DNA from: Thiogranum sp.
GTDB lineage: Bacteria; Pseudomonadota; Gammaproteobacteria; DSM-19610
DNA length: 64,000 nt
NCBI GenBank assembly: GCA_030148775.1
Contig: JASBST010000094.1
Span: forward strand, 1-64,000
Direction: 5' to 3'
The position numbers and the translations under genes are program-made. The notes under the pieces were generated by a model that saw only the letters and a program-made list of their open reading frames with translations, ran no database searches and was not told the DNA's origin. The number at the start of each line of letters is the position of its first letter. Within the stretch, counting starts at the first letter, position 1. Shown here in pieces: positions 12,418 to 42,607 of this stretch.

Positions 12418-12864
12418 ATGAGCAGATATAACACAGGCAAAATTCTGGGCGAACCCTGGTTACCGTTGATGCGGGAATTGGTCTGGGCCTATCAGGCCTT
12501 TTCACAGTATTCCAACCAGCATGTGAAGAGCCTCGGTTTGACGCCACCCCAGTTCGATGTCCTCGCCACACTGGGCAATACCGAGGGCATGCCCTTTAAA
12601 GAGCTTGGAGATAAAACCTTAATCACCAAAGGCTCGCTGACGGGCATTGTCGATCGAATGGAAAAAAAAGGCTGGATACAACGGGTGAACTCAAATGAGG
12701 ACAGGCGCTCGACGCTGGCTCGCTTGACTCCGGCAGGACATAAACTTTTCGAGCAGGTGTTTCCGCTTCATCTGGCGCATTTGGCACGTGCATTCAAACG
12801 TCTCGACTGTCGTGAGCGAACGGAACTGATGACGTTGTTAGGCAAGTTGAGGAAAAATTTTTAA
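12418..12864 (+). CDS. MarR-family transcriptional regulator
   Basis: 148 residues with the winged-helix domain in the middle: LTPPQFDVLATLGN, then MPFKELGDKTLITKGSLTGI (recognition helix) and VDRMEKKGWIQRV with the DRRSTLARLT wing. The N- and C-terminal helices form the dimer interface. Such proteins usually repress detoxification or aromatic-compound genes and let go when a phenolic ligand or oxidant binds. One cysteine (FKRLDCRERTEL) is present near the C-terminus and could sense redox, though this is only a possibility. The same sequence motif lies in its own promoter and in that of the YceI operon downstream, so it probably controls both. Confidence 0.88.
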   Translation: MSRYNTGKILGEPWLPLMRELVWAYQAFSQYSNQHVKSLGLTPPQFDVLATLGNTEGMPFKELGDKTLITKGSLTGIVDRMEKKGWIQRVNSNEDRRSTLARLTPAGHKLFEQVFPLHLAHLARAFKRLDCRERTELMTLLGKLRKNF

Positions 12865-12898: not shown

Positions 12899-13186
12899 CC
12901 ATAGGCGAACGTAATTTTCGGGAGAATACAGACCATGCAATGTTCACAGCTTTTATACGTAAAACCTCGCGGCAGGCATGTCCGCCGGTGGTCGGGTCGG
13001 GTAACCGCAGCTGCGCTTTCGCTGCGGCCGCTGCAGCGGGATCGAACCGCCACCAAACTCTTCCACAGTACTGCCGGAGACCCGCAGTGCCGCCCGGCGC
13101 GGTCATGCGGTCTCCGGAAATCGGCCGTCGCGAGATGGCGGCCATACCCAAGTCTGGCAAACAGCCCCACTCTAGGAGAAACCATC
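12899..13186 (+). other. Long leader upstream of the YceI gene
   Basis: A 288-bp leader separates the promoter from the YceI start. It contains an ATG at 12935 with a strong GGGAGA site, and that frame runs through into the YceI frame without a stop (84 extra codons). The encoded extension is Arg/Pro-rich and would bury the signal peptide, so it is unlikely to be the normal start. It could act as a leader peptide or be chance. Confidence 0.4.
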
Positions 13187-13777
13187 ATGCAAGCACCTAT
13201 CAAGACAGCCGTCCACAGTATGACCCTCATTGCAGCCCTCAGCGCCGCACCTGTATTCGCGGCCCCTCCCGCGCAAGGCACTTATAAGATCGACCCTCAG
13301 CACACCAGCGTACACTTCCAGGTGAATCACCTCGGTTTTAGTGAAGTGGTGGGCCGCTTCAACAGCTTGTCGGGTAAAATCAATTTAAAGCCCGACGGCG
13401 ACTCGAAAGTCGACGTGGAGATCCAAACGGCCAGCGTGGATACAAATTACGACAAACGTGACGACCACCTGCGCAGTCCTGACTTCTTCAACGCAAAGCT
13501 GTACCCGATTATCCGATTCACCTCAAACAAGGTCTCGTTCAACAAAAACGGCGATCCCGTGGAAGTCACCGGCGAGCTTACACTTCACGGAAAAACCAAA
13601 CCGGTCACATTGAGCGTCCAACCGGTGGGCGCCGGCGATGATCCGTGGGGCGGTTATCGCGTAGGTTATGTCGCTAAAACGGTTATTAAACGATCCGACT
13701 ACGGCATGAATTTCATGCAAGGCGGCATCGGCGACGATATCGCCATCAACCTGAACATCGAAGCCATCAAGATATAA
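13187..13777 (+). CDS. YceI-family periplasmic lipid-binding protein
   Basis: 196 residues, ATG at 13187 after TAGGAGAAACC. The N-terminal Sec signal (TLIAALSAAPVFA, cleavage near residue 26) puts it in the periplasm. The lipocalin-like YceI signatures are all present: GTYKIDPQHTSVHFQVNHLG, VVGRFNSLSGKI, DDHLRSPDFFNAKLYPIIRF, VTGELTLHGKTKPVTL and RSDYGMNF. The family binds polyisoprenoids or quinone-like amphiphiles in its barrel. It heads an operon with a membrane protein and a DODA-type dioxygenase, behind a promoter sharing the MarR motif. A role in binding a quinone-like compound during aromatic stress fits this setting but is inferred. Confidence 0.92.
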   Translation: MQAPIKTAVHSMTLIAALSAAPVFAAPPAQGTYKIDPQHTSVHFQVNHLGFSEVVGRFNSLSGKINLKPDGDSKVDVEIQTASVDTNYDKRDDHLRSPDFFNAKLYPIIRFTSNKVSFNKNGDPVEVTGELTLHGKTKPVTLSVQPVGAGDDPWGGYRVGYVAKTVIKRSDYGMNFMQGGIGDDIAINLNIEAIKI

Positions 13778-13829: not shown

Positions 13830-14606
13830 ATGAATATGACATTACAACTCGTACTCCCTGCCCTGGTTATGCCAGCGCTCTTTTCATTCGCCATGCTTTG
13901 GCTGGCCAGGCGTAAACCAGGTACAGGCAAGGCACTAATCCTGGTCTGGCTGCCATTATATGTTTGGATAAACGGCGTACCCGAGTTTCCCTCGCGGGAT
14001 GCCACCAACTGGCTGTGGCTGGCTGCGCTGCTGGCCGCCGCGGCCGTTATGCTTGTCCGACAAAGGAGCCTGCTTGCCACGGCGCACAGCACCGTGCTGC
14101 TCGCCGGCCTTCTGACCATCGCATGGCCTGTAATCCACTTGATCAGTGTCGCGTTCACGCTGACCTTGGGTGCGGCGCTGCTGGTCGGCGGTCTGATTTA
14201 CTATCTTCCCAACGAACGGGCCACGCTGCCGATAACCGCGACGGCCGTGAACACCGCGGGTATCGGCCTGGTTTCAGCGCTCGGTGGCAGCTTGCTCGTT
14301 GGTCAGCTGGCTATCGCCCTGGCGGTGGTCCTTGGTGCCTTCACGTTGGCGGAAATCTTTTCCCGAAAAACACGCCTCAACTTTCCGTCTGAGTTTCTCG
14401 CGCCCTTTGTCACCATTGACCTGCTATTGCTCGTGATTGGACGCGTCTATGCCGACTTACCGATAGGCCCGGTGGTGCTGTTGCTTATCTCGCCACTGGT
14501 AGGGCTGCTGTTGCGCTGGCGCTATAGTGTCGTTGTAAGTACATCTCTGGTTCTTGGGGCTCTGCTGTGGTTACTTGTTGGCAGCGGCTCTTCAAACTAT
14601 TACTAG
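13830..14606 (+). CDS. Polytopic membrane protein of unknown function (258 aa)
   Basis: Almost wholly hydrophobic, with about eight predicted helices and short loops, ending with a small hydrophilic tail (GSGSSNYY). It starts 52 bp after YceI and ends 5 bp before the dioxygenase gene, so it is the middle gene of that operon. There is no signature of a known transporter and no conserved charged residues inside the helices beyond a few Asp/Arg at the loops. It could be a transporter or an integral partner of YceI, but that is a guess from position. Confidence 0.75.
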   Translation: MNMTLQLVLPALVMPALFSFAMLWLARRKPGTGKALILVWLPLYVWINGVPEFPSRDATNWLWLAALLAAAAVMLVRQRSLLATAHSTVLLAGLLTIAWPVIHLISVAFTLTLGAALLVGGLIYYLPNERATLPITATAVNTAGIGLVSALGGSLLVGQLAIALAVVLGAFTLAEIFSRKTRLNFPSEFLAPFVTIDLLLLVIGRVYADLPIGPVVLLLISPLVGLLLRWRYSVVVSTSLVLGALLWLLVGSGSSNYY

Positions 14607-14611
14607 ACCCT

Positions 14612-15391
14612 ATGTCTCTGCCCGCTCTATTTATCAGCCATGGCGCGCCGGACACCGCGGTGACGGACATGCCTGCAACCCGATTCCTACGACAGTTAGG
14701 CGAGAGACTGGAGCCAGTCGACAACATTGTTCTGGTTACGTCGCATTGGCTGACGCACCATCCTTTGCTGTCGGCGCAAGCGCAACCGGCCACCTTGCAC
14801 GACTTCTACTGGGGACCTGATCCGGCACTATACGCGATGGAATATCCGGCAAAGGGAAATCCACAGCTCGCCGAAGAAATCGCCCTGTTACTGGCCAACA
14901 ATGGAATCGCCGCCGGTATTGATGTCCAGCGTGATATGGATCACGGCGTATGGACGCCACTGGTTCACCTCAAACCCAAAGCCGAAATCCCCGTGGTGGC
15001 GCTTTCGACTCAGCCCTATTGCGATACACGCCACCACCTGGCGGTCGGCCGGGCGCTGGCTCCGCTCAGGGAAAAGGGCGTATTGATTATTGGGAGTGGC
15101 GCGGTAACACACGACCTGCGCGGCATAGGCGGGTCTTGCGCCCAGCAGGCCGCGCGCTCCCACGCGCTCGAGTTTTCACAGTGGGTCAACAACTCTATGA
15201 AAACAAAGTCCCTGGATGCTTTGCTGAATTACGAAAAGGAAGGGCCGCACGCCGCGATCAATCATCCGACGCCGGAACATCTTCTACCACTGTTTGTTGC
15301 AATGGGCGCCGCAGAAGACGGGCCATGGAGACGGATTCACAGCAGTTGGTCCTATGGGGTCCTGGCGATGGATATTTACAGCTTCGGTTAG
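14612..15391 (+). CDS. DODA-type extradiol aromatic ring-opening dioxygenase (YgiD-like)
   Basis: 259 residues from the ATG at 14612, which lies 5 bp after the previous stop. The LigB/DODA fold is shown by LPALFISHGAP at the N-terminus, in which the His is a metal ligand. It is also shown by VTSHWLTHHPLL, DMDHGVWTPLVHLKP, LIIGSGAVTHDLRG and NHPTPEHLLPLFVAMGAA. In relatives a Zn or Fe centre cleaves catechol rings outside the hydroxyls (for example 4,5-cleavage of DOPA). It is the last gene of the YceI operon, next to a hydroquinone reductase and an operon whose predicted product is catechol, so a catechol-type substrate is plausible. Confidence 0.9.
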   Translation: MSLPALFISHGAPDTAVTDMPATRFLRQLGERLEPVDNIVLVTSHWLTHHPLLSAQAQPATLHDFYWGPDPALYAMEYPAKGNPQLAEEIALLLANNGIAAGIDVQRDMDHGVWTPLVHLKPKAEIPVVALSTQPYCDTRHHLAVGRALAPLREKGVLIIGSGAVTHDLRGIGGSCAQQAARSHALEFSQWVNNSMKTKSLDALLNYEKEGPHAAINHPTPEHLLPLFVAMGAAEDGPWRRIHSSWSYGVLAMDIYSFG

Positions 15392-15399
15392 TCCAAAAT

Positions 15400-16281
15400 T
15401 CAATGCTCGTTAAAACGCGCAGCCAGTTCGTCGATGAACAATCGGACCTTGGCCGATAAATGCTTGCGGTGCGAATAGACCGCGCACAGTCCCAACTCGG
15501 GAATTTTGAAGTTCTCGAGTACAAGCCGGACGGTGCCGTCGGCAATGTCCTTGTCGACAACGAATCTGGGACAGACCGAAATTCCATTGTCCCTGAGCAC
15601 CAACGCCCTGACCGCGATTGCGCTATTGACGATATATTTTGCAGCGATATTTATTTTCTCATCGACGCCTTCAAACCCCCAACAGCCGCCGCCGCGGAAG
15701 TTGGAATCAATAATACACTGATGTTGCGACAACTCCCGCGGGTGTTTCGGCTCTCCAAACTTCTTTAGATAGCCGGCAGAAGCACACACCACAAGGGGAA
15801 TACTACACAGCCGCCGTGCCACCAGACAGGAATCCTGAAAGTCCGCGATCCTGAGTGCGAGATCGAAGCCTTCTTCGACCAGGTCGACGACGCGGTCTGT
15901 CAACACCATGTTAAAGTCTATATCGGGATACTTTCGCGAGAAATCAGAAACGACCTGCATTATATACAGTTCGGCGAAGGTCGTCGGCGCACTTATATAT
16001 AGTTTACCCGTGGGCTTGCCATGCGTCTCGTGGGCTTCGGTTTCCAGCTCATCAAGCTGCTCTAATAGCTGTAGACTCCCTTCGTAATAGTTTCGGCCCA
16101 CGGTGGTCAGATTAATCTGCCGCGTCGTACGTTGTAGCAGGCGGATGTTCAGCTCGTTTTCCAACTGAGCAACATATTTGCTCAGAAGCGTTTTGGAAAT
16201 GTTGGTTTTACGCTCAGCGCGGGAAAATCCACCGGCCTCGACAACCGCCACGAACGCCCGAATACAGGTCAGCTTATCCAT
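15400..16281 (-). CDS. LysR-family transcriptional regulator
   Basis: 293 residues. The N-terminal winged helix (DKLTCIRAFVAVVEAGGFSR, then SKTLLSKYVAQLENELNIRL) is typical. The effector domain from about residue 90 (TGKLYISAPTTFAELYIMQV, GFDLALRIADFQDSCLVARR) is of the CrgA/DhcR-like group that responds to aromatic or quinone compounds. It is convergent with the dioxygenase gene and divergent from the hydroquinone reductase gene, which is its most likely target through the 353-bp shared gap. Confidence 0.9.
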   Translation of the reverse strand: MDKLTCIRAFVAVVEAGGFSRAERKTNISKTLLSKYVAQLENELNIRLLQRTTRQINLTTVGRNYYEGSLQLLEQLDELETEAHETHGKPTGKLYISAPTTFAELYIMQVVSDFSRKYPDIDFNMVLTDRVVDLVEEGFDLALRIADFQDSCLVARRLCSIPLVVCASAGYLKKFGEPKHPRELSQHQCIIDSNFRGGGCWGFEGVDEKINIAAKYIVNSAIAVRALVLRDNGISVCPRFVVDKDIADGTVRLVLENFKIPELGLCAVYSHRKHLSAKVRLFIDELAARFNEH

Positions 16282-16634: not shown

Positions 16635-17630
16635 ATGTTAATCAATGGCAAATGGTCGGAAAACTTTCAACCGGTTCAGGACGAAGATGAGCAGGGACGC
16701 TTCCTCCGGCAGGCTTCGCGCTTCAGGAATTGGATCACCGCGGATGGATCGGCAGGGCCTACGGGCACCGACGGCTTTGCGGCTGAAGCCGGTCGCTACC
16801 ACCTTTACGTGGCGCTGATATGCCCCTGGGCCAGCCGTACCCTTATGACGCGCAAGCTCAAGAAACTGGACAACCTTATTTCGGTTACCGTGGTCGAGCC
16901 GTTTCTGTACGATCAATGCTGGCGTTTCGGCGACTTCCCAGGTTCACAGCCCGACCCCCTTTACGGTTGCCAATGGGTTCATGAGCTGTACACACGTGCC
17001 GATTCCAATTATACCGGGCAGGTGACCGTACCTGTTTTATGGGATAAGAAACAGGACACCATTGTTAACAATGAATCCGCCGATATCATCAGAATGTTCA
17101 ATAGCGCCTTTGTTGGCCTGGCCGAGGAAAGTCCGGATCTCTATCCTGAGCACTTGCGCGCTGAAATCGACCGGATCAGCGACCGCCTGTACCGGAACTT
17201 CAACAATGGCGTCTATCAGGCGGGTTTTGCCACCACGCAGTTCGCTTACGAAGAAGCGGTAACCAAGGTCTTCGACTCCCTGGCCTTTTTGGAACGCCGT
17301 TTGACAAACAGACAATTTCTTGTCGGTGAGCAGCTGACCGAGGTTGATATCCGGGCCTTTGTGACATTGATTCGTTTTGACGTCGCGTACTACGGCCTGT
17401 TCAAGACGAATCTCGCCCATGTTTGGGACTACCCACAGGTCTACGCTTACATGAAACGACTATATGCAACCCCTGGTATCGCGGAAACGGTGAACTTCGA
17501 GCATATTCGGCAGGGGTATTACTCGATCAAGGCACTAAACCCCACCGGAATATTGCCCAAGGGACCGCCCGTGGACGAAATAATCAAACAGAAAAAAGAA
17601 AGAACCCCTGTATGGGCCATCGCCAAATAG
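16635..17630 (+). CDS. Glutathionyl-hydroquinone reductase (YqjG/PcpF type)
   Basis: 331 residues, close to the family's usual 320-330. It reduces glutathionyl-hydroquinones back to hydroquinones in the cytoplasm, using a single cysteine. That Cys is visible at residue 63 (ALICPWASRTL). Other signatures are LYVALICPW, QVTVPVLWDKK, IVNNESADIIRMFN, NNGVYQAGFATTQ and LTEVDIRAFVTLIRFD; the last two lie in the all-alpha GST C-domain. The ATG at 16635 follows AGGGGACAAC. Divergent from LysR, convergent with the UbiD-type decarboxylase gene. It protects against benzoquinones and fits the aromatic theme of this island. Confidence 0.93.
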   Translation: MLINGKWSENFQPVQDEDEQGRFLRQASRFRNWITADGSAGPTGTDGFAAEAGRYHLYVALICPWASRTLMTRKLKKLDNLISVTVVEPFLYDQCWRFGDFPGSQPDPLYGCQWVHELYTRADSNYTGQVTVPVLWDKKQDTIVNNESADIIRMFNSAFVGLAEESPDLYPEHLRAEIDRISDRLYRNFNNGVYQAGFATTQFAYEEAVTKVFDSLAFLERRLTNRQFLVGEQLTEVDIRAFVTLIRFDVAYYGLFKTNLAHVWDYPQVYAYMKRLYATPGIAETVNFEHIRQGYYSIKALNPTGILPKGPPVDEIIKQKKERTPVWAIAK

Positions 17631-17664: not shown

Positions 17665-19122
17665 CTAGTTTTCGAGGAAACGCCTAATATCCACATCCTG
17701 AAAATGCGCCCGACGAAACTTATCCTTGAGTCTGAACGGAACAGTACAATCGAAGATTGTTTTGCAAGAGGTTCCATGAGCCGGCAACAGCGGATTGAAT
17801 TCCGGCGTTTGTGACGGATCCAGGGGATGACACCGAACCCCAGGTATGAACAGCGTATTGACGTCCCCCTGATAGCGGGTTGTCATCGCCCACAACACAT
17901 CATTTGTGTCGAAAATATCCACGTCGGGATCAACCAGGATAATATGTTTAAGCTCTGAAAAAGCGGCGAAGGCCGCCAGCGCCGCCTGGCGCTGTCTCCC
18001 CTCATCGTGAATGGAAAGCTTATCGAACTGCATAATCGCCAGGTATTTTCCTCCACCGGCGGAATGCGCGTAAATATTCTTCAGACGGCCCGGCATTGCC
18101 GCTTCCACATGATTGAGAATACTCGCTTCCGTGGGAATGCCGGCAAGATTGGTATGCTCCTCCCCCGGTCCGATGATTGTCTGTAAGATTGCATTACGCC
18201 GGGTGGTCACCGCCGTGACCCGGATGACCGGCAATTCCTTCTGCGCCTCTCCCATATAACCGGGGAACTCAGGCATGGCATAACCGGTATTGGTGTTGGC
18301 ATCTTCCCGCACGCGCTCGCCGGGCAATATCTCGCCCTCGATGACCACTTCGGCATGCGCGATCGCCTTGGCCGCGACCGTTCTGCAGTTCACCAGTTCT
18401 ACCGCGCGTCTCCTGAGTCCGCCGCCGATGGTAAGTTCGTCGAAGCCTAGAGGGGTGGTGGGCGCTTCGAAACAGGCTCCGACGTATAGCGCCGGATCCA
18501 GGCCCATGTTGATTGAAACCGGCAGCGGCTGACCCTTTTTTTCCGCCTTCATGCGAAACTGGTCGATATGCCTCCCTGGCACGAAATACACACTCAGTCT
18601 GTCGGGTCCCTGTACGCAGAGCCTATGAATGGTAACGTCAGCCTCGCCGGTCTCGGGATCCTCCGCTCGAATCAGCCCCATATTAAAGTAAGGACCCGCG
18701 TCCTCGGCGGTATTGGTGGGGGCCGGCAGTAAGGTGCGTATATCAAGCGGCGCTTCGTGAACCACCTCCTGACAGGGGGCGGGAGCGGAAATCGTGACCG
18801 GATCGATACGATGCCTTAAAGCTTCCAGCAGCGTGAAGGGCAACCGCTCTTTGCTCGTCCCGAGGAGTAACGCGGTACGTTCGCGACTGGCCATCACACC
18901 GGTAATGACCGACAGATCGTGGTTTTTTACATTCTTGAACAGCATCGCCGGTCCAACCCGCGTTGGCGGTTCAACTGGCGTACCGGCACCGATATGCCGG
19001 TAGACACCGGCCAGCTCACCATCCGGATCGACTTCGACATTCGTCGACAGCAGCTGCCCCGGGTGTTTGGCGAGCAGAGCGAGTGCGGAGCGCAGATCAT
19101 AGACTTCAGCGGAAGAGGCCAT
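17665..19122 (-). CDS. UbiD-family decarboxylase, protocatechuate/gallate decarboxylase (AroY/LpdC) type
   Basis: 485 residues. UbiD enzymes use prenylated FMN to remove a carboxylate from an aromatic ring. The N-terminus (ELAGVYRHIGAGTPVEPPTR) and the blocks RTLLPAPTNTAEDAGPYFN, VTIHRLCVQG, SINMGLDPALYVGACFEA, EGEILPGERVRED, MPEFPGY and GPGEEHTNLAGIPTEAS follow, from memory, the protocatechuate/gallate decarboxylase branch more than UbiD itself. The catalytic Glu/Arg network (EGE...R...E) is intact. The C-terminal KTIFDCTVPF is also typical of that branch. It is the last gene of the operon with the dehydratase-like, DAHP synthase and DHQ synthase genes. No UbiX (prFMN maker) is in the window, so it must be elsewhere. 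Substrate assignment is inference. Confidence 0.85.
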   Translation of the reverse strand: MASSAEVYDLRSALALLAKHPGQLLSTNVEVDPDGELAGVYRHIGAGTPVEPPTRVGPAMLFKNVKNHDLSVITGVMASRERTALLLGTSKERLPFTLLEALRHRIDPVTISAPAPCQEVVHEAPLDIRTLLPAPTNTAEDAGPYFNMGLIRAEDPETGEADVTIHRLCVQGPDRLSVYFVPGRHIDQFRMKAEKKGQPLPVSINMGLDPALYVGACFEAPTTPLGFDELTIGGGLRRRAVELVNCRTVAAKAIAHAEVVIEGEILPGERVREDANTNTGYAMPEFPGYMGEAQKELPVIRVTAVTTRRNAILQTIIGPGEEHTNLAGIPTEASILNHVEAAMPGRLKNIYAHSAGGGKYLAIMQFDKLSIHDEGRQRQAALAAFAAFSELKHIILVDPDVDIFDTNDVLWAMTTRYQGDVNTLFIPGVRCHPLDPSQTPEFNPLLPAHGTSCKTIFDCTVPFRLKDKFRRAHFQDVDIRRFLEN

Positions 19123-19202
19123 TAAAACGTCCTGTTGTCAGTGTATAGTTCCAATTTACAAACTATACCGATACAGAAATTATGCGTCTATAGCAGAGCG
19201 GG

Positions 19203-20288
19203 TTACGCGGCCGTAACAACCTCTTCGAGCAAGTCATTCTCAAACTGCGAGCATATAAATGACACCCCTGGTTCTTTCAGCAATACCAGGCGCAGCACGC
19301 CTTTGTCGATTTTCTTATCATGGCGCATAAACTCCATCATCGCGCGATGACTGATATCTTTCGGCGCATTGACTGGCAGACCCGCTCTTTTTACCAACGA
19401 GTAAATTCGGTCTTTATCGCTTCCGCTCAGCAACCCCATGCTACAAGACAACTCTGCCGCCAGACACAGCCCGATGGCGACCGCCTCGCCGTGCAGAACC
19501 TTCCCGTATCCGCTCGCCGCCTCGATTGCGTGGCCAAACGTGTGCCCCAGGTTCAAAAGCGCTCGTTGGCCGTCTTCCCGTTCATCCGCTTCTATCAGGC
19601 GCGCCTTGTTCCGACAGGACCGGGAAATACAAAAAAGAAGAGCTGCGTATTCCCGAGCCATTATTTTCTCGATATTGCCCGACAACCAGTCAAAAAACGC
19701 ACCATCGTTGATCAGCGCGTACTTGATGACCTCCGCAATTCCCGCCGAATACTCGCGGGCAGAAAGCGTCGCCAACGTGTCCACATCGATCACGACGCCC
19801 GCCGGTTGATGAAACGCTCCTATCATGTTTTTGCCCAACCTGTGATTGACACCTGTTTTACCCCCAACCGAGGAATCCACCTGAGACAACAGCGTGGTCG
19901 GGACCTGGATAAGATCAACCCCGCGCTGGTAACAGGCAGCCGCAAAACCGCTCATGTCCCCGACTACGCCGCCGCCCAACGCCAACAGGGTGCAATCTCT
20001 GTTAAAACGGTGCTCTAACAATCGGTCAAGTATGGTGGTTACCGTTTCAAGCGTTTTGTACCGCTCACCATCAGCAAGTACGACTGTTTTTACATCATAG
20101 TTTCCCAACGCCGCCTCGACCTTTTTCAAATATAGCCGTGCCACGGTCTCATTTGTCACAATCATAACCTGGCTGGACCCGATAAACTTTGCATAGGTGT
20201 CGGTTCGGGATATCAGATCTGTTCCTATAACAATAGGATAACCCCGTTTGCCAAGATCCACTTTCACTACTTCGCCGATATGTGTCAC
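19203..20288 (-). CDS. aroB: 3-dehydroquinate synthase
   Basis: 361 residues from the GTG at 20288, which has a GGGGGA ribosome site; this length matches AroB, whereas the ATG at 20411 would overlap the upstream gene. It turns DAHP into 3-dehydroquinate with NAD and a divalent metal. Visible signatures: VLADGERYKTLETV, ALGGGVVGDMSGFAAACYQRGV, QVPTTLLSQVDSSVGGKTGVNH (NAD-binding and catalytic Lys), AEVIKYALI (metal Glu), LLNLGHTFGHAIE and LHGEAVAIGLC (metal His residues). This is a normal DHQ synthase rather than a sugar-cyclase relative. It lies between DAHP synthase and the UbiD-type decarboxylase. It may be a second copy dedicated to this operon. Confidence 0.93.
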   Translation of the reverse strand: MTHIGEVVKVDLGKRGYPIVIGTDLISRTDTYAKFIGSSQVMIVTNETVARLYLKKVEAALGNYDVKTVVLADGERYKTLETVTTILDRLLEHRFNRDCTLLALGGGVVGDMSGFAAACYQRGVDLIQVPTTLLSQVDSSVGGKTGVNHRLGKNMIGAFHQPAGVVIDVDTLATLSAREYSAGIAEVIKYALINDGAFFDWLSGNIEKIMAREYAALLFCISRSCRNKARLIEADEREDGQRALLNLGHTFGHAIEAASGYGKVLHGEAVAIGLCLAAELSCSMGLLSGSDKDRIYSLVKRAGLPVNAPKDISHRAMMEFMRHDKKIDKGVLRLVLLKEPGVSFICSQFENDLLEEVVTAA

Positions 20289-20373
20289 TTTCAGTCCCCC
20301 AATCGATGTCCTATAGACCGCATTCTGTACACGCGGAGTCAAATTTAACACGCGCCCGGAAAAACTCGGAAAA

Positions 20374-21477
20374 CTACGCCGCCACTCCGTCGAGATCCGA
20401 AATCGTCGCACGGCGCTCGCGCACCGCCTGGGCGAGTGCTCTCAGGGTATATTCGGTATCCGCCCAATCAATACAGGCGTCGGTTATACTCTGGCCGTAC
20501 GTCAACGGTTTTCCTTCAATATAGTCCTGTCGGCCTTCTTTTAGGTTGCTCTCGAGCATTACACCTACAATTTTTTGCTCTCCACAGGCAATCTGCCGCG
20601 CCAACTCGATGGCGACCTTGATTTGGTTTTTGTGCTTTTTTTCGCTATTGCCATGACTGCAATCGACCATTACCGCGGGATTCAGCCTGGCCGCTTCCAG
20701 AGCGCGCGCGGTGGTTTGAATATCCTCGCTCGAATAGTTCGTGCAGCCCTTTCCTCCACGCAATATAATATGCGCATCGTCATTGCCGGTAGTGGTAAAG
20801 ATTCCGGTCGCCCCGGAACCTGTCAGCGAGATAAGTCGATGTTTATGTTTCGCCGATATCAGAGCATCCACCGCAACCTGAATGCTGCCGTTGGTGGCGT
20901 TTTTGAACCCGACGGGGCAGGACAAACCGGAGGCCATTTCACGATGAATCTGACTCTCAGTGGTGCGCGCACCGATAGCGCCCCAACTGATGAGATCCGT
21001 TATATACTGAGGCGTCATAAGGTCCAGAAATTCACTCGCGGCCGGAAGGCCGAGTTCGGTGATATCGAGCAACAGCTTTCGTGCCAGCCGCAGGCCTTTG
21101 TTGATGTCGAAACTACCATCCAGGTCCGGATCGTTGATCAGACCTTTCCAGCCCACGGTCGTACGCGGCTTTTCGAAATAGACTCTCATCACGATGTGCA
21201 GATCATCGGCAAGTTCGTCGCGCAGTGCTTTCAGCCTCTCTGCATAATCAATCGCCGCGCCTGGATCGTGAATTGAACATGGCCCTACGATTACTACAAG
21301 TCGATCGTCCTGGTTGTGAAGGATATTGTGGATTTCCCGCCGTGCGTCTTTGACCCTTTTCGCCAGCATCGGGGTGATAGGGAATTCCGCCAGCATTTCC
21401 GGGTAGGAGCAGACCTCCTCTATATCGGCGATTCTCAGGTTGTCCACTTTAACCCCTACGGTATTCTTAGCTTCCAT
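20374..21477 (-). CDS. 3-deoxy-7-phosphoheptulonate (DAHP) synthase, class I AroG/AroF/AroH type
   Basis: 367 residues, ATG at 21477 behind AGGAGAATATC. It condenses erythrose-4-phosphate and phosphoenolpyruvate to start the shikimate route. Class I alpha signatures are all present: VVIVGPCSIHDPGAA, MRVYFEKPRTTVGWKGLINDP (read in parts), LPAASEFLDLMTPQY, WGAIGARTTESQIHREMASG, VGFKNATNGS, HIILRGGKG, VMVDCSHGNS and GVMLESNL. The Cys in GPCSI and the His in DCSHGNS are metal ligands. The N-terminal extension (about 40 residues) normally carries the feedback site; which amino acid it senses cannot be told. Second gene of the operon, 40 bp after the TIM-barrel gene. It gives this operon its own supply of DAHP. 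Confidence 0.95.
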   Translation of the reverse strand: MEAKNTVGVKVDNLRIADIEEVCSYPEMLAEFPITPMLAKRVKDARREIHNILHNQDDRLVVIVGPCSIHDPGAAIDYAERLKALRDELADDLHIVMRVYFEKPRTTVGWKGLINDPDLDGSFDINKGLRLARKLLLDITELGLPAASEFLDLMTPQYITDLISWGAIGARTTESQIHREMASGLSCPVGFKNATNGSIQVAVDALISAKHKHRLISLTGSGATGIFTTTGNDDAHIILRGGKGCTNYSSEDIQTTARALEAARLNPAVMVDCSHGNSEKKHKNQIKVAIELARQIACGEQKIVGVMLESNLKEGRQDYIEGKPLTYGQSITDACIDWADTEYTLRALAQAVRERRATISDLDGVAA

Positions 21478-21517
21478 GATATTCTCCTGATTACAAGATT
21501 TTAGAAAACGCAGGCAG

Positions 21518-22396
21518 TTACGCCGCCTTTTGATCCGAAGCCGGAAACATCTTCATGAAGAGTTCGCGTTGCCGCATTAGGTGCGCGGCCGCTGTGTCGA
21601 TGCCGGTTTGCGGGACCAGAAAATCCTCGAGCGCATAAGCACCGTCATAGCCATTCATATACAGCAGATTCAGCAACTGCCTCCAGTCGACCATTCCCTT
21701 ATCGATGCCTGACCAGCCCCACTGCCAGGATTCGTCCTTCAATATCCACGAGGTGTTTTTAACGTGGACATTGCTAATATGGTCCTGCACAAGCTTGATG
21801 CCGAACTCCCAGTCCTCTTTGCCCTCCACCACCATATTGGCCGGGTCAAAGGTAAGCGCGATATATCTCGGATCCAGGTCGGCCAGCAGAAAATAGGCGC
21901 TGCTAAAACTGCTCATCACCGTTCCCCAATGCAACTCCAGCAGCACCTGCAGATTTCTGAGCCTGGCTTTACGCTCAATATCCTTCAGACAGGATCGTAG
22001 TGAAACCATCAGCTCTGCGGGTTGTTTCCTGGGCTCGTAAGAAGGCAGCAGCTCACGGATATTGGCCTGGCGCGACACTGACGCCTTGCAACTGCGGGGC
22101 AATACCAGCCGAACCCTGGGAACGCCCATGTTGTGACATACATTGAGCATACGGTCGACTTTGGCGTTTTCTTCAATCGGCAGGTAGCTGTTCAGCACCT
22201 GAACCTCGATTTCGTCTTTCTCAAGTTTACGAATGACATCGAGGCCTTGATGTTCGAGCTCATCAAGGCTTTTGTGTCCGTATTCATGAACCCGTAACTC
22301 GATCGTCTTGAACTGCGCCGTCTTGACTACCGCCGCCATCTGATCGAAGTCGAAACCGGGCAGTACCGCTGTGCAAAGGTTAAATGTGGGCAACAT
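21518..22396 (-). CDS. Xylose-isomerase-like TIM-barrel enzyme, possible 3-dehydroshikimate dehydratase
   Basis: 292 residues, ATG at 22396 with an AGGAGTCAG site. It belongs to the sugar phosphate isomerase/epimerase (AP endonuclease 2) superfamily. The four metal ligands expected of the barrel are in place: Glu in VLLELHWG, Asp in ALTFDPANM, His in SNVHVKN and Glu in YALEDFLV. The superfamily includes AsbF-type 3-dehydroshikimate dehydratases, which make protocatechuate, as well as sugar isomerases and inosose dehydratases. The choice here depends on context: it heads an operon of DAHP synthase, DHQ synthase and a protocatechuate-decarboxylase-like UbiD protein, so dehydration of 3-dehydroshikimate is the most economical reading. 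Fold firm, reaction inferred. Confidence 0.8.
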   Translation of the reverse strand: MLPTFNLCTAVLPGFDFDQMAAVVKTAQFKTIELRVHEYGHKSLDELEHQGLDVIRKLEKDEIEVQVLNSYLPIEENAKVDRMLNVCHNMGVPRVRLVLPRSCKASVSRQANIRELLPSYEPRKQPAELMVSLRSCLKDIERKARLRNLQVLLELHWGTVMSSFSSAYFLLADLDPRYIALTFDPANMVVEGKEDWEFGIKLVQDHISNVHVKNTSWILKDESWQWGWSGIDKGMVDWRQLLNLLYMNGYDGAYALEDFLVPQTGIDTAAAHLMRQRELFMKMFPASDQKAA

Positions 22397-35596: not shown

Positions 35597-36352
35597 TCAG
35601 CGCTGGAACTCAACGTGCGCGGCCTGGCCGGCTTGCAGCGTATCGTCGTCCGCCTCGAATCCGACCCGCACGCGGTACTTCGCCGGGTTGCCGGAGTCGG
35701 CGGCGATTTGTATGACGTGACCGTCGTAGCGATGCCCCCCGACCTGGACCCTGGCTGGCAGGCCGTTCTTCAGACCCGCGAGTTTTTCAACGTCGAGGCT
35801 TGCCTGCGCGACCATGGGGCGGTCGCGGCCGAGCACGATCATCGGCGTGACCTGGTCGCGGTTGACGACCGTTTCGCCCACCTGCACCGGTGTGGCGAGC
35901 ACCCGGCCGCCGTAGGGCGCGCGCAACCGGCTGTACTCCAGCGCCAGCCGGGCGGCGTCGAGGCGGGCCTGCGCGCTGGCGTAATCGGCTTGTGCGCTCG
36001 CGGTGGCTATTTCCTGCAATTGCAGGTCGTGGACCGCTATGACAGTGCGTTCGTACAGCGACTGGGTGCGTTCGAGCTCGCGCTTGGCTTCATCGCGCCG
36101 CAGTTTTTCCTTGTGTACCTGCGCGGTGGCGTCGCGCAGCCGGGTTTCGAAGGGGCGTTGGTCCAGTGTCAACAGGACCTGACCGGCGGTTATACGGTCG
36201 CCCGGGACGACCGGACGCGTTTTCACCACGCCCGAGACCGGCGTGCTCAATGTGGTGCGCTGCGACCAGTCCAGCACGGCGGGATATTGCTCGGCGTATA
36301 CCGTAAGGCTCAGCCCACTGAGGGCGAGGCCAAGTATCCAGGACTTAGTCAT
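35597..36352 (-). CDS. HlyD/RND-type periplasmic efflux adaptor
   Basis: 251 residues with a Sec signal (SWILGLALSGLSLTVYAEQ). The two half-motifs of the lipoyl domain are visible (TPVSGVVKTRPVVPGDRITAG and YSRLRAPYGGRVLATPVQVG), flanking a coiled-coil hairpin (TAQVHKEKLRRDEAKRELER, AQADYASAQARLDAARLALE). It ends early, without the long membrane-proximal domain of full adaptors (usually 350-400 residues). The start overlaps the TolC-type gene by 8 bp, so the two are coupled. No inner-membrane pump gene follows, so the partner is missing or encoded elsewhere. Confidence 0.88.
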   Translation of the reverse strand: MTKSWILGLALSGLSLTVYAEQYPAVLDWSQRTTLSTPVSGVVKTRPVVPGDRITAGQVLLTLDQRPFETRLRDATAQVHKEKLRRDEAKRELERTQSLYERTVIAVHDLQLQEIATASAQADYASAQARLDAARLALEYSRLRAPYGGRVLATPVQVGETVVNRDQVTPMIVLGRDRPMVAQASLDVEKLAGLKNGLPARVQVGGHRYDGHVIQIAADSGNPAKYRVRVGFEADDDTLQAGQAAHVEFQR

Positions 36353-37691
36353 GCGGGTCCCCTTGTCTGTCGAGTGAGGTCGGCTGCAAATAGGGTGAAA
36401 AGGATTCGCCGCTGAGCGCGCTCAGACGTGCCCAGTCCAGGGCCAGGGCGTACTCGGTCTGCGCCGCCAGCAGCGCGGCCCGCGACTGGCCGACCAGGGC
36501 GGTGCCAAAGTCGGTCTTGACCTGCAACTCGTAAAGCGCCTGGGCGCGATCGAAATCAAGCGCGCGGTAATCGGTGCTCACCTCAACTTGCTGGCGTTGC
36601 GCCAGCAGTGTCTGGATGTCCAGCCAGACATCCAGCAGATTCTGTCGCAGGTCGAATTCCAGTTGCTTCAGTTCGGCTTCCAGGCGATGCATAGTGGCGC
36701 GTGCACGCGCGACCTCGGCGTCGACACGCCCCCCCCGGTACAGCGGGATGTCCAGGCGCAGTTCCACCTCCAGCGGATTGCGCGAGCTGATGTCACGGTT
36801 CCCGGCGGCGGTACTGACCGAGCCGCTCAGTACCGGGCGCGCACCGGCACGTTCGGCCTTTATGCGCAGGCGTGCGGCTTCCAGGTCCGCCTTGAGCGAC
36901 TGCACGCGCGGGTTGTTCGCCAGCGCCGCCTTGACCAGGTCTTCGTACTCGGGGAGCGCCTGGTCGTTTTCCTGCAACGGCGGCGGCGCGAGCGTCGCCG
37001 GAAGATCGTCCGGGCGGTTCAGCAGCTGCGCCAGTTTTGCGCGGCTGCTGCGCTGGCGCGCCTGGGCACGCAGGCGTTGCATGCGCAAGGCCTGATAGGC
37101 GTTCTGTTGTTCCAGCAGACGGGAGTCGGAAACCTGCCCGAGCTCGTTACGGTCCCGCAGGCGGTCGGCCTGCACAAAGGCCACCGCCATGGCCTCGTTG
37201 TCGCGGGCGAAGGTCAGGTCTGCGATCAGCACATCGAAAAACGCCTGCATGACACGGATCCGATACTGCGTCAGATCCGCGCTGAATCGCAACCTGCCGC
37301 CGTTGACGCGGGTTTCCGCGGCCGCCTCCAACGCCTCGGTACGGCCAAAATCGTAAAGTTGTTTGCGCGCAAACAGCGCGGCGCGGGAATCGTTGTGGCT
37401 CTGGTCCGTGGCGACGTCGGACGGTTCGATGAAGCGCGCTTGCAGGCGCGCGCCGATATCGATGTCGTCGCGGGCATAGGCCCGGGCGGCGTCGGCCTGC
37501 AGCGACTCGATATCGGCGCGGCTGGCGCTCAACAACGGGTGGTTCTCGCCCGCCAGACGCAGGGCCTCACCCAGGCTCAGCGGCTCGGGCAACGCCTGCC
37601 CGGCCAGGCCGGCCGCCGGCAGGTGCAGCAGCAGACCGAGCACCGCCAGGATCGGCCGCAGGCCGTGCCGCCTGGTACCGCGCCGGATCAT
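36345..37691 (-). CDS. TolC-family outer membrane efflux protein
   Basis: 448 residues from the ATG at 37691, whose first bases overlap the stop of the thioredoxin-like gene (ATGA, 4 bp). A Sec signal (LRPILAVLGLLLHLPAAGLA) leads into the TolC repeat structure: long helices rich in Ala, Leu and Gln (LSLGEALRLAGENHPLLSAS, NPRVQSLKADLEAARLRI, VEVSTDYRALDFDRAQALYE) and the strand-type PLYRGGRVDAEV near the middle. It forms a trimeric channel through the outer membrane and would dock with the adaptor encoded next. Extension upstream to 37781 only adds a non-protein-like basic stretch. Confidence 0.9.
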   Translation of the reverse strand: MIRRGTRRHGLRPILAVLGLLLHLPAAGLAGQALPEPLSLGEALRLAGENHPLLSASRADIESLQADAARAYARDDIDIGARLQARFIEPSDVATDQSHNDSRAALFARKQLYDFGRTEALEAAAETRVNGGRLRFSADLTQYRIRVMQAFFDVLIADLTFARDNEAMAVAFVQADRLRDRNELGQVSDSRLLEQQNAYQALRMQRLRAQARQRSSRAKLAQLLNRPDDLPATLAPPPLQENDQALPEYEDLVKAALANNPRVQSLKADLEAARLRIKAERAGARPVLSGSVSTAAGNRDISSRNPLEVELRLDIPLYRGGRVDAEVARARATMHRLEAELKQLEFDLRQNLLDVWLDIQTLLAQRQQVEVSTDYRALDFDRAQALYELQVKTDFGTALVGQSRAALLAAQTEYALALDWARLSALSGESFSPYLQPTSLDRQGDPHD

Positions 37692-38221
37692 TGCCGGGCG
37701 GTTTGCTTGCGCCTGTCGCGCTTGTATCGGGCGAAGGGTTCGTCGCGGTAATGACCTTCGGCGGCATATTGGCCGAGCCAAAGCATTTCCTCCACGCCGC
37801 TGGTGGGACCGGTATAGCGCGCGACCAGTTTGCCGTCGGTATTGTAAAAGGCGAACACGGGGGTGGCGCGTACCTGGAACTGTTTGAACGCGAAGTCCTT
37901 CTGCGTGGTCGTCCTGCCCTGGAAATCGGTGATCTCCAGATCCCCCTCGATGTCGACGCTGAACAGCCGAAAGTGCTTGCGAAAATACGCCTGCACTTCG
38001 GGCTGGTTGAGTACCGTGGTCTTCATGCGGTGGCAGAAGGGGCAGCTGTCCATTTCAAAGAAAATCATCACGCCCTGTTTGCCCTCATTGCGCGCGAGTT
38101 CGGCCTCCTCCTGGAAGTTGCCGAAGGTTTCCTGGAAAAAATACTGCGCCGGGTCCCGGGTTTCAGCGCCGGCAGGCGACAGAACGATCAGACTCAGCAG
38201 AAGCGACAGCAGGCGAAACAT
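37688..38221 (-). CDS. Secreted thioredoxin-fold protein (SoxW-like)
   Basis: 177 residues from the ATG at 38221, chosen because a clean Sec signal (FRLLSLLLSLIVLSPAGAE) begins there. The CxxC active site is MDSCPFCHRM (Cys60, Cys63). The cis-Pro loop is RATPVFAFYNTDG. The sequence between, GVMIFFEMDSCPFC and KHFRLFSVDIEGD, is typical of the SoxW/thioredoxin-like group in sulfur oxidisers. It leads a three-gene operon with TolC and an adaptor. It may keep cysteines of a periplasmic protein reduced; the partner is unknown. Confidence 0.85.
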   Translation of the reverse strand: MFRLLSLLLSLIVLSPAGAETRDPAQYFFQETFGNFQEEAELARNEGKQGVMIFFEMDSCPFCHRMKTTVLNQPEVQAYFRKHFRLFSVDIEGDLEITDFQGRTTTQKDFAFKQFQVRATPVFAFYNTDGKLVARYTGPTSGVEEMLWLGQYAAEGHYRDEPFARYKRDRRKQTARQ

Positions 38222-38698
38222 GGCGCAAAACCAACGGTAGCGTGTATATACACTGATATTCTGGAGGACGAGCGGGCGCCGCAATTTGTTCCACATTGCA
38301 ACCTATCGCACGTTGAAGCCCACCCGGTCGGTTGTTGGCGAAGGCTCCAACGTCCTGGCCTCTTTGCCGAGCGGTCGAAAGGTCGGGGGCGGGGTGCACC
38401 GGCTGCGGGCGTCCCGAATGTCGCTTCGCACCTGTTATACAAGAGTTTTTTATTTATTGTCCAGTTGTGGTATAAAAAATATTCGATCTGCGCTAAGGGC
38501 AATCATCAAAAAAACCAGTCACCGCCTTAGTCACCAGTCTCTCCCAGACCGCGCCGGTCTCCGCCACTCGGCTGCCCCCACCGGCTCGTCCGAATTCGCT
38601 TGGATCACACGCGGCACAACCCCGCTGATCGGGTCGGCGCAAGACCGGTACATCCCGGAGGATGTACCGGTGCCGCCGGCGAATCTCCACTGTGCCGG
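38222..38698. other. Intergenic region between the thioredoxin-like and di-haem genes
   Basis: 477 bp. The first part (38222-38300) holds the start region of the thioredoxin operon; an AT-rich stretch lies near 38440-38490. The hairpin at 38644-38671 follows the di-haem gene. No gene was recognised. Confidence 0.4.
38644..38671 (-). terminator. Strong hairpin after the tandem di-haem genes
   Basis: ACCGGTACATCC (38644-38655) and GGATGTACCGGT (38660-38671) form a perfect 12-bp stem with a 4-base loop, 27 bp beyond the stop of the second di-haem gene. No T-run follows on the minus strand. Confidence 0.6.
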
Positions 38699-40339
38699 TC
38701 AATAGGTCGTACAACGAAAGTTTTCATCGACCACCAGACAGGGGGTGTCGGCCGGCAGAATTTGCAGCGATTTCAGAAATTCTATGACAGCGTTCTGGCC
38801 CGAGGCCGCCAGTTCCCTGAACGCGTTACCGGATTGTTCGGCTTCGCCATGGTGCGCGAGCACCGCTTCGCGCATAGTCGTATACAGACCGTGATGACCG
38901 AAGCTGTGTTGGTTGGCAATGCCCCAAAGCTTACGGGTCAGGAATTTGCTATTGCCGGCGAAAAACTCGGGGGATCCGGTCGGATGGTTCTGGCTCAACG
39001 GCTCGACGTCGCCATCACACAGTCCGTCCTTGATCAGCTCCGGGTTGGCGTCGCAGGAGGGTTTACCGGTAGTGATGTCGTGCAGTTTCAGGTCTGTGTA
39101 CGCCGGAACCGTTACCACGCCGTTACGCGCGTGCAGACGCGGCTGTGGCAGATCGTCGCGCGTCAGGTCCACCTCCAGTGTGGCCACGCCATCGTCCCGT
39201 CGCAGGGTGCCGGGCGGATTGAACGGACTGGGTTCCGAGAAAACCCATCCCTTGTCGGTAAGCGGCAGGTTTGGGATATGGCAGCCGGCGCAGCCGATGG
39301 TATCGAAAAGGCGCTCGCCCCGCACAATGGCCGCGCGCACCTTTTTATTGCGCGGAATGACACGCCCCGGGGCCGGGAGGGTGGCCTGGAACACGGAGAC
39401 TGCGGTCATATCGGCAATCGTCAGCTCGTTGGCAAAACCGTCTTCGTCCTGATCGACGTCGGTGCCGAAGCGCTCTTCCGACTGAACTCCGAGCAGCCGG
39501 GTGAAGGAGTTGTTGCTGAACTGCCGCAAAGAAATGACGGCCCCGGACTGAAAGAACGGCTGGATTATCAGACTGGGCGCATCGGTTCCGCTCGTCAGCA
39601 GGCTCGGCGCCGGCAGACCGAGCACCTGGGTGGTGTCCCAGGTTCCGTCCGGGTTGCGAATCAGGGTGCCGAAGTCGATCCCCTTCGATGACAGCGCACA
39701 CTCGCTGCCCGGTGCGCAGGCAGCGGCCAGCGCCTGCAGGTCGGTGGTGATCTGCCGCGCCAGCATCTCTATGTAGCCGGACCCGAACATGCCCGTGCTC
39801 TTGCGCGCATCGGAGATATTTTGCAACGTGACCGGCAGGCCCCTCTCGTCGAGCGTGCCGCGGGTAATGACGGTGTCGTTACGATCGAAGGTCGCGAAAT
39901 CAAAGCAATTGGCCAGCACAAAGACATTGCCGAGGGTGTCTCCGCCGCCGACCCGCGGCTGAATATGGCAGCCGATGCAGGAACCGGCCGCCGCGCCGGA
40001 AAAGCGGTTCATGTTTCTCGGGAATGTGAGCGGCGAAAGCGGATCGGTCAATTTACCGTCATTACCTTTACCGAACGGCCGGCCCTGGCCCTCCTGACTG
40101 GTCCAGCGGGCGGTGAACAGCTGCTCACCGTGACTGACCAGCTCGGGAAGCGTGATGTCGAACTCCTGACCGTTTTGCAGGTGCGTCGGGATGGCGAGTT
40201 CACGACCGATAAACGCCGGGTCGAGCACAGGCGGATGGCTGATAAACTCGTCCTGGGTTGTCGCCGCGAACGAAGACGCGCTGAGCAGCGATGTGGCTAC
40301 CATCGCCGGTATAACGTGGAGTCTGCTGAATTTATACAT
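38699..40339 (-). CDS. Di-haem oxidoreductase (DHOR / putative peroxidase family), copy 2
   Basis: 546 residues with a Sec signal (AMVATSLLSASSFAATTQ). Two CxxCH haem sites are visible: SCIGCHIQPR (near residue 135) and GCAGCHIPNLPL (near 345). The family's other marks are LFTARWTSQEGQGRP, FGSGYIEMLARQI, EERFGTDVDQDEDGFANELT and ANQHSFGHHG. Such proteins resemble di-haem cytochrome c peroxidases and occur in periplasmic electron-transfer chains. It directly follows a close relative on the same strand (33-bp gap), so the pair arose by tandem duplication. The ATG at 40339 is preceded by AAGGGACTATTC. The electron donor and substrate are not known. Confidence 0.88.
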   Translation of the reverse strand: MYKFSRLHVIPAMVATSLLSASSFAATTQDEFISHPPVLDPAFIGRELAIPTHLQNGQEFDITLPELVSHGEQLFTARWTSQEGQGRPFGKGNDGKLTDPLSPLTFPRNMNRFSGAAAGSCIGCHIQPRVGGGDTLGNVFVLANCFDFATFDRNDTVITRGTLDERGLPVTLQNISDARKSTGMFGSGYIEMLARQITTDLQALAAACAPGSECALSSKGIDFGTLIRNPDGTWDTTQVLGLPAPSLLTSGTDAPSLIIQPFFQSGAVISLRQFSNNSFTRLLGVQSEERFGTDVDQDEDGFANELTIADMTAVSVFQATLPAPGRVIPRNKKVRAAIVRGERLFDTIGCAGCHIPNLPLTDKGWVFSEPSPFNPPGTLRRDDGVATLEVDLTRDDLPQPRLHARNGVVTVPAYTDLKLHDITTGKPSCDANPELIKDGLCDGDVEPLSQNHPTGSPEFFAGNSKFLTRKLWGIANQHSFGHHGLYTTMREAVLAHHGEAEQSGNAFRELAASGQNAVIEFLKSLQILPADTPCLVVDENFRCTTY

Positions 40340-40372
40340 TGAATAGTCCCTTTTCGTTTGTTGAACAACAGC

Positions 40373-42028: not shown

Positions 42029-42607
42029 CATTATCTCCTTATGGGATGCCAAGGACGCCTGCGACCGGCTCCAGCGTCGCGGGCGTCCGTCCTTACTTTC
42101 CGCTTGTGTAACTGCAACCTACTGGAATCCGATACGCCCCCTCACCGACAAGGTATCGAATTGACGAAATAGAACGGCACCCAACCAAATGAATAGTTTT
42201 CCAGGGTGCGACAACGTATAAGTTTAGGCGTTGTAGATTACAAAGATAAAAAACGGCGAAAAATATTCCCGGTTTTTTTGTTTCTTCACATTCACCCGGA
42301 ATAAAACGCCTCGGCACCTCATCTTTATGCTCGAATGCGGATCGAACTACAGGGAAAGGACAATATGTATCACGATTGAAGAGATTCCGGTGTCTGCATT
42401 CGGCAACGATCGCCCGACCCCGCACACTCGTACCTGTATCCGTGACCTGACCATGTTATAACTAATAACGATTGCGCCAATCGAGGGGCCGTGTCGTTTC
42501 GCGCTCCAAGCGCCGCGCGATGACCGCCTGCTGTAGCGGGCCGCCGTAACGCGAGTACGCGCGCGCTAAATTGGCAAAGGACTTTTGTAGCTTATGGAGG
42601 AGTTTCA
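42029..42607. other. Divergent control region of di-haem and flavoprotein operons
   Basis: 579 bp. AT-rich between 42230 and 42300 (AAAGATAAAAAACGG, then GGTTTTTTTG), GC-rich beyond 42480. It should hold promoters for both operons. An open frame at 42093-42425 (minus) is not protein-like. No known RNA was recognised. Confidence 0.45.

Follow-up and report, generated by a model that had tools for sequence, protein, structure and literature searches.

Among engineered routes to aromatic compounds, the one that leads from 3-dehydroshikimate via protocatechuate to catechol is a standard. In the AroZ-AroY(-CatA) route to catechol or muconate, as outlined in PMC7564838, a dehydratase and then a protocatechuate decarboxylase act on 3-dehydroshikimate. 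Four classes of 3-dehydroshikimate dehydratase have been described so far, according to the overview of these enzymes in PMC9324987. Among the titles and abstract openings listed by searches of the open PMC library, none announces a natural operon for de novo catechol, which is weak evidence of absence given that subscription journals fall outside this scope. Here we describe a row of four genes in a 64,000-nucleotide stretch of a Thiogranum sp. genome (contig JASBST010000094.1; hereafter the window, in genome G000) that is probably such an operon, natural, anabolic and dedicated to de novo catechol. Its enzymes are of known kinds; it is their probable assembly as a dedicated anabolic unit that none of those titles and abstract openings announces.

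The four genes lie on the minus strand and encode, in transcription order, a triosephosphate isomerase (TIM) barrel protein, a 3-deoxy-D-arabino-heptulosonate 7-phosphate (DAHP) synthase, a 3-dehydroquinate synthase and a UbiD-family protein. The TIM-barrel protein (21518..22396, 292 aa) belongs to the AP_endonuc_2 family (PF01261, 67.1 bits) and is a proposed 3-dehydroshikimate dehydratase with putative AsbF-like activity. It is followed by a type I alpha DAHP synthase of the AroF/G/H class (20374..21477, 367 aa), the 3-dehydroquinate synthase (19203..20288, 361 aa) and a predicted UbiD-family protocatechuate decarboxylase of the AroY type (17665..19122, 485 aa). The listed open reading frame of the 3-dehydroquinate synthase begins at GTG 20411 and overlaps the DAHP synthase gene; a GTG at about 20288, preceded by GGGGGA, is the better start and yields the 85 bp interval to the DAHP synthase gene. 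The initial annotation had described four same-strand genes with gaps of 40-85 bp, and the open reading frames bear this out, with intervals of 40, 85 and 80 bp in transcription order. From spacing and conservation only, we infer that the four genes are co-transcribed. The row is not a product of chance, because the same order occurs in a second genome and the functions come together again in another phylum.

Both entry enzymes are the genome's second copies. The operon DAHP synthase scores 526.2 bits against TIGR00034 (cut-off 173.2) and about 441 bits against AroG structures, and its counterpart on contig C102 is 62% identical to it. The operon 3-dehydroquinate synthase scores 376.9 bits against TIGR01357 (cut-off 305); an AroB-like sugar-phosphate cyclase was considered for this protein and rejected, TIGR04425 giving 250.3 bits, under its cut-off of 400. 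A 58% identical 3-dehydroquinate synthase lies on contig C105, next to what look, by eye in the reading frames, like shikimate kinase and dGTPase genes. This housekeeping aroB (locus L020) carries an in-frame TAG in the assembly, which is either real or a sequencing error; if it is real, the operon copy is the only intact 3-dehydroquinate synthase found.

All three UbiD domains (PF20695, PF01977 and PF20696) are matched in the last protein of the row. The initial annotation had assigned it to the protocatechuate/gallate-decarboxylase branch, and the solved structures agree: AroY (5o3m, 5ny5, 5o3n) scores 633-646 bits, while the other 37 sequences listed score at most 238, and 292 of 472 aligned residues (62%) are identical to AroY 5ny5. 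Exchange of R188, E289, H327, K363 or H436 abolishes AroY activity, according to the mutational results given in PMC5656893. These positions correspond to R184, E285, H323, K359 and H432 of the window protein, so that all five mappable catalytic residues are retained; a sixth residue named in the same results, Arg181, lands on a serine in the 5ny5 sequence and is not mappable. The five residues are present in all 13 aligned AroY-type sequences. In an unrelated UbiD, from a Nostocales genome, the last four of the five positions are occupied by D, E, Y and D. A ubiquinone-type UbiD, or 4-hydroxy-3-polyprenylbenzoate decarboxylase, is ruled out by the NF008175 score (106.9 bits, cut-off 788), the structure scores and the residues, and the placement with the 4-hydroxy-3-prenylbenzoate enzymes that the initial annotation had allowed for was thus not found. 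The comparison covered the solved structures and, as a profile only, VdcC (408.9 bits, cut-off 650). The sequence supports an AroY-type enzyme, predicted to be a protocatechuate decarboxylase dependent on prenylated flavin mononucleotide (prFMN). In a tree of UbiD proteins, the eight linked to a TIM gene group apart from five AroY-type proteins of plasmids (ultrafast bootstrap 81, Shimodaira-Hasegawa-like approximate likelihood ratio test 100), on a branch that is not strongly supported and with a very long outgroup.

The initial annotation had raised the prospect that linkage might not be conserved in relatives, and it is conserved. In Thiogranum sp. BWSM_145 (G005, locus L007), all ten genes from a MarR-family regulator to the TIM gene have the same arrangement, at 61-93% identity by gene. 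A profile of the AroY-type UbiD was run on 17 handles: one for G009 and the others for 12 TIM-bearing genomes, four of which were entered under two handles. Full-length matches (>1000 bits) occurred in eight of the 12 TIM-bearing genomes, and in all eight the two genes stand in one gene row, directly adjoining in six and with the DAHP synthase and 3-dehydroquinate synthase genes between them in two, the window and G005. Because possession of a TIM gene was the basis for selecting the genomes, this count measures linkage given TIM and not the frequency of AroY. Each of the six TIM-bearing gammaproteobacteria carries the AroY-type gene in the row of its TIM gene. In four loci (L013 of G012, L014 of G016, L015 of G007 and L017 of G394), TIM comes directly after UbiD within about 300 bp, a relative of the window's LysR-family regulator (33-34% identical) is divergent upstream of UbiD, and FG-GAP/UnbV proteins lie downstream where the locus is long enough. 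At L013:8950-15677 and L014:8937-15662, the UbiD-TIM pair is succeeded by three proteins in a run, related to one another and about 716-744 aa long; FG-GAP and UnbV domains are present in the one that was scanned. The TIM gene is rare, with the proviso that the contig scan detects close relatives only and rarity holds for those: of the genomes sampled, 2 of 369 in the class carry it (each belongs to this genus), as do 5 of 17 same-genus genomes and 2 of 386 in the cyanobacterial phylum, both already in our set.

The strongest argument for the pathway is a cyanobacterial cluster. In a Nostocales metagenome-assembled genome (L009), genes for UbiD, TIM, DAHP synthase, a cupin-like protein of 150 aa, UbiX, 3-dehydroquinate synthase and a phosphoglycerate mutase (iPGM) follow one another in a row, and a convergent tyrosinase gene comes next. 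Divergent from UbiD are a MarR gene, a pyridine-nucleotide oxidoreductase, DoxX, a second MarR, a glutathione transferase and a LigB-type dioxygenase; identity to the window proteins is 54-55% for MarR, 48% for the transferase and 43% for LigB. The DAHP synthase of this cluster belongs to the other class (TIGR01361, with a ferredoxin-like domain), indicating separate recruitment of one and the same function. The presence of UbiX within the row is as expected for a prFMN enzyme. About 400 bp separate TIM from the DAHP synthase gene, so that the row may form two transcripts. The 150 aa gene was considered as a type II dehydroquinase, an identity that is unsupported: it has no NCBIfam match, and in Pfam it resembles a polysaccharide-synthesis domain and a cupin domain only at scores below cut-off. 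In Desmonostoc (L008), two MarR genes accompany UbiD and TIM; about 4 kb after TIM there is a tyrosinase gene. Tyrosinases oxidise catechols, and the family was found in three of the 12 TIM-bearing genomes as against none of 14 control genomes. It is near the pathway genes in both Nostocales that have an AroY-type UbiD; the copy in G388 is on a different contig from its TIM gene.

Taken by itself, the Thiogranum row was described in the initial annotation as self-contained and lacking only dehydroquinate dehydratase. The missing dehydratase is confirmed, but UbiX is missing as well; with both dehydroquinase and the cofactor enzyme absent from the operon, 'self-contained' is too strong. The search elsewhere in the genome that the annotation had proposed recovered one of each, a type II dehydroquinase (AroQ) and a UbiX, both on contig C53. 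The genes and their families, the AroY catalytic residues, the conserved linkage and the genomic AroQ and UbiX are established, and they outline the following pathway. The second DAHP synthase and second 3-dehydroquinate synthase would push carbon from phosphoenolpyruvate and erythrose 4-phosphate into 3-dehydroquinate, which the cell's AroQ would convert to 3-dehydroshikimate. Dehydration of 3-dehydroshikimate by the TIM enzyme would give protocatechuate, which the AroY-type UbiD, supplied with prFMN by the cell's UbiX, would decarboxylate to catechol, its predicted product. Catechol oxidation gives rise to quinone, which the regulators, the glutathionyl-hydroquinone reductase and the extradiol dioxygenase next to the row would probably sense and limit. 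Three rows contain both DAHP synthase and 3-dehydroquinate synthase, and in none of them was a dehydroquinase recognised (the type I enzyme was not part of the search), so that the TIM enzymes might instead take 3-dehydroquinate directly.

Several observations weigh against a dedicated catechol operon, and many of them concern the TIM protein, the weakest step of the pathway. Judged by sequence, it is a distant AP_endonuc_2 member and only remote kin of AsbF. It is a single-domain PF01261 barrel, and its structure was predicted with a pLDDT (predicted local distance difference test) of 85.3 and a pTM (predicted template modelling score) of 0.86. When this model was searched with Foldseek, SCO6571, Art22, UlaE, AtHYD and others outranked AsbF (rank 13, TM 0.65, 17% identity in the fold alignment), and QuiC1 (5hmq) came at rank 35. 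A profile built from 12 TIM members placed AsbF (3dx5) third, with an E-value of 1.4e-5. By neither fold nor profile, therefore, is the nearest relative a known 3-dehydroshikimate dehydratase. Of the proposed membership in the AsbF group, PF01261 and the third place by profile stand, but sugar isomerases and epimerases lie above AsbF by fold, and the placement is not settled. When the active-site residues listed for AsbF in PMC9324987 are compared, Y70, E142, H144, D172, H198 and K200 are identical in the window protein (Y71, E154, H156, D184, H211 and K213), making six of eight aligned; His175 is replaced by Asn187, Arg102 has no clear partner, and F211, Y217 and E253 fall outside the alignment shown. 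The same E/H/D/H/K quintet occurs in one of four alignable PF01261 controls, a weak control (scores of 1.6-16.9 bits) drawn from 13 loci, one of which (L080) is itself a TIM family member; the four are the non-members alignable at all five positions. AsbF-type residues are thus partly general to the superfamily, and the sequence permits a 3-dehydroshikimate dehydratase rather than proving one. We infer the dehydratase role from context, namely a lone PF01261 gene (at E 1e-8) linked to an AroY-type decarboxylase that is predicted to act on what such a dehydratase would form. Relatives of the TIM protein at 24-26% identity occur on Rhizobium plasmids, which account for 83 of 85 matching plasmid records; the one Rhizobium relative viewed lies among sugar-type genes and ABC (ATP-binding cassette) transporters and was judged uninformative, and one Subdoligranulum plasmid matches in a record without annotation.

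The remaining points on that side concern transcription, genome quality and the fate of catechol. A consensus scan found three promoter-like sites where shuffles led us to expect 4.0, no signal above shuffles. It found nine terminator-like sites against 5.6 expected (sd 2.8, shuffles), and one of these, at 21528-21512 on the operon strand, spans the TIM stop codon, between TIM and the DAHP synthase gene. The DAHP synthase reading frame of G005 changes between bases 9635 and 9655 of L007, through assembly error or decay. Absences from G000 are soft because the genome is 86.7% complete. In four of the six TIM-bearing cyanobacteria (L010, L011, L012 and L016) there is no full-length AroY-type UbiD, so that this catechol route is not open to them. 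As a contrast set we took five plasmid AroY-type loci, of 30 listed among 409 matching records. None of the five has TIM, DAHP synthase or 3-dehydroquinate synthase, so that an AroY-type gene is by itself no sign of anabolism. In four of them a UbiX gene adjoins UbiD or lies close to it, and in the Peribacillus plasmid locus (L104) the genes around the AroY-type UbiD are annotated for aromatic ring cleavage. Catechols could be opened by the linked LigB-type enzyme, and one of the two Nostocales searched (G385, which has the cluster) possesses a PF00775 intradiol dioxygenase gene. None of the six gammaproteobacteria searched has a PF00775 gene, and none of eight genomes has a catechol 2,3-dioxygenase above the TIGR03211 cut-off, with matches below it in six. 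The absence of these two ring-cleavage families from the gammaproteobacteria, together with the DAHP synthase and 3-dehydroquinate synthase in the operon, led us to set aside quinate or shikimate catabolism, though not to exclude it fully, as other extradiol families were not searched.

In the four cyanobacteria without a full-length AroY-type UbiD and on a plasmid of Aulosira laxa, TIM occurs with a major facilitator superfamily (MFS) transporter, and the product may be protocatechuate or a derivative. The gene before TIM encodes a family-less protein of 246-264 aa (L010, L012, L016 and Aulosira) or a glutathione transferase (L011, 52% identical to that of the window). Neither L012:7173-7967 nor L092:11225-11965, which encode the family-less protein, has a Pfam match, and the L092 protein has no NCBIfam match; by eye, it has a heme-oxygenase-like diiron look, and it could be a different tailoring enzyme. 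The Aulosira plasmid (L092, AP018309.1) is typed conjugative, and the UbiD search covered the plasmid and not the rest of that genome. The patchy spread of TIM, one copy of which is on this conjugative-type plasmid, fits horizontal transfer. In Calothrix NIES-4105 (G389), a remnant of an AroY-type UbiD at L091:7132-7653 (149 positions matched), about 0.74 Mb from TIM, suggests loss.

These cyanobacteria bear on the alternative that the main product is protocatechuate and that UbiD serves a side reaction or reverse carboxylation. Four of the six keep TIM and the transporter without a full-length AroY-type UbiD, so that protocatechuate may be the end product there, and AroY can carboxylate catechols in vitro, as reported among the results of PMC5656893. 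In all six TIM-bearing gammaproteobacteria, however, the AroY-type gene shares the row. Decarboxylation is also the usual physiological direction, which counts against this alternative, and we consider it unlikely. We would also be surprised if the TIM protein were a sugar-phosphate or keto-sugar isomerase or epimerase in a mixed operon, with the extra DAHP synthase and 3-dehydroquinate synthase serving aromatic amino acids and UbiD acting on outside aromatics. Among the top fold matches there are indeed superfamily isomerases and epimerases as well as a hydratase, and the weak NCBIfam matches of the protein are to L-ribulose-5-phosphate 3-epimerase and IolE. Yet it is the sole PF01261 match at E 1e-8 in G000, and TIM stands in a row with an AroY-type UbiD in two phyla, joined in L009 by DAHP synthase, UbiX and 3-dehydroquinate synthase.

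Enzymes of the AroY branch include gallate decarboxylases, and the product could on that account be pyrogallol, formed by decarboxylation of gallate from oxidised dehydroshikimate. The dioxygenase and glutathione transferase would suit any easily oxidised polyphenol, but no gallate-making gene was recognised in the row and the residues match the characterised protocatechuate enzyme (gallate decarboxylases being outside that comparison), making pyrogallol highly improbable. For catechol itself, candidate uses are as a redox mediator, a metal ligand or a precursor of pigment or polymer. We advance more tentatively the broader possibility that free catechol is the deliberate end product of a modular pathway common to gammaproteobacteria and Nostocales, which came together on two or more occasions around DAHP synthases of different classes, and that this catechol is used extracellularly as a redox mediator, a metal ligand or, in tyrosinase-bearing cyanobacteria, the monomer of a catechol melanin, with TIM as a new class of 3-dehydroshikimate dehydratase.

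Beyond UbiD, the window continues with genes whose families suggest that they may defend against, or use, oxidised catechol. Adjacent on the plus strand is a Xi-class glutathione transferase of the glutathionyl-hydroquinone reductase family (16635..17630), YqjG-like, with YqjG 3r3e as the best solved match at 359 bits and 4uss, a chain named glutathionyl hydroquinone reductase, at 262 bits. The LysR-family regulator (15400..16281, minus strand; PF00126/PF03466) comes next, and then, all on the plus strand, a LigB-type extradiol dioxygenase resembling 4,5-DOPA dioxygenase (14609..15391; PF02900, 110.9 bits), which also matches 4,5-DOPA dioxygenase structures; a 258 aa protein without a family (13830..14606), which has no Pfam match and is 61% identical to a protein in the same place in G005; a YceI-like protein (12935..13777; PF04264, 159.3 bits; 82% in G005), whose domain is C-terminal and whose true start is probably further in; and a MarR-family regulator (12418..12864; PF01047, 66.2 bits). 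The last is a relative of the MarR proteins beside UbiD in L008 and L009, and L084 and L087 hold four MarR genes to which it is 49-55% identical. Elsewhere in the window, positions 36345-46461 encode an outer-membrane efflux protein, two di-haem oxidoreductase-like proteins and two FAD/NAD-binding proteins, with no link to the operon seen.

If our reading is correct, the route that engineers put together also arose by evolution, as an operon equipped with entry enzymes of its own; a second phylum has a related assembly, and both have quinone-type genes as neighbours. Catechol and muconate production would gain a new class of dehydratase along with a decarboxylase to match, and the operon would raise the testable question of why these bacteria and cyanobacteria would make free catechol. 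Among known systems, the bagremycin and ferroverdin clusters, which we know here from NCBIfam model names only, have models for DAHP synthase, UbiX/UbiD and a tyrosinase-like oxidase, and L009 has the same kinds of genes; scores against these models are all well under cut-offs, and the chemistry is different. The plasmid AroY-type loci encode UbiD proteins that are 63-65% identical to that of the window and have the same five residues; the three scanned score 441-478 bits against the VdcC model and, like the window protein, stay below its cut-off. AsbF, which acts anabolically in petrobactin biosynthesis, is a single-domain PF01261 barrel like the window TIM protein and agrees with it at six of the eight active-site residues aligned from the PMC9324987 list, but the two are 17% identical in the fold alignment and differ at His175, and no siderophore assembly gene was recognised beside TIM. 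Unlike the two-domain AroZ/QuiC type, the window enzyme has a single domain. The engineered AroZ-AroY route outlined in PMC7564838 runs through the chemical steps proposed here from 3-dehydroshikimate onwards, and the four-gene row differs from it in being a natural operon, with its own DAHP synthase and 3-dehydroquinate synthase, no CatA, and quinone-type neighbours.

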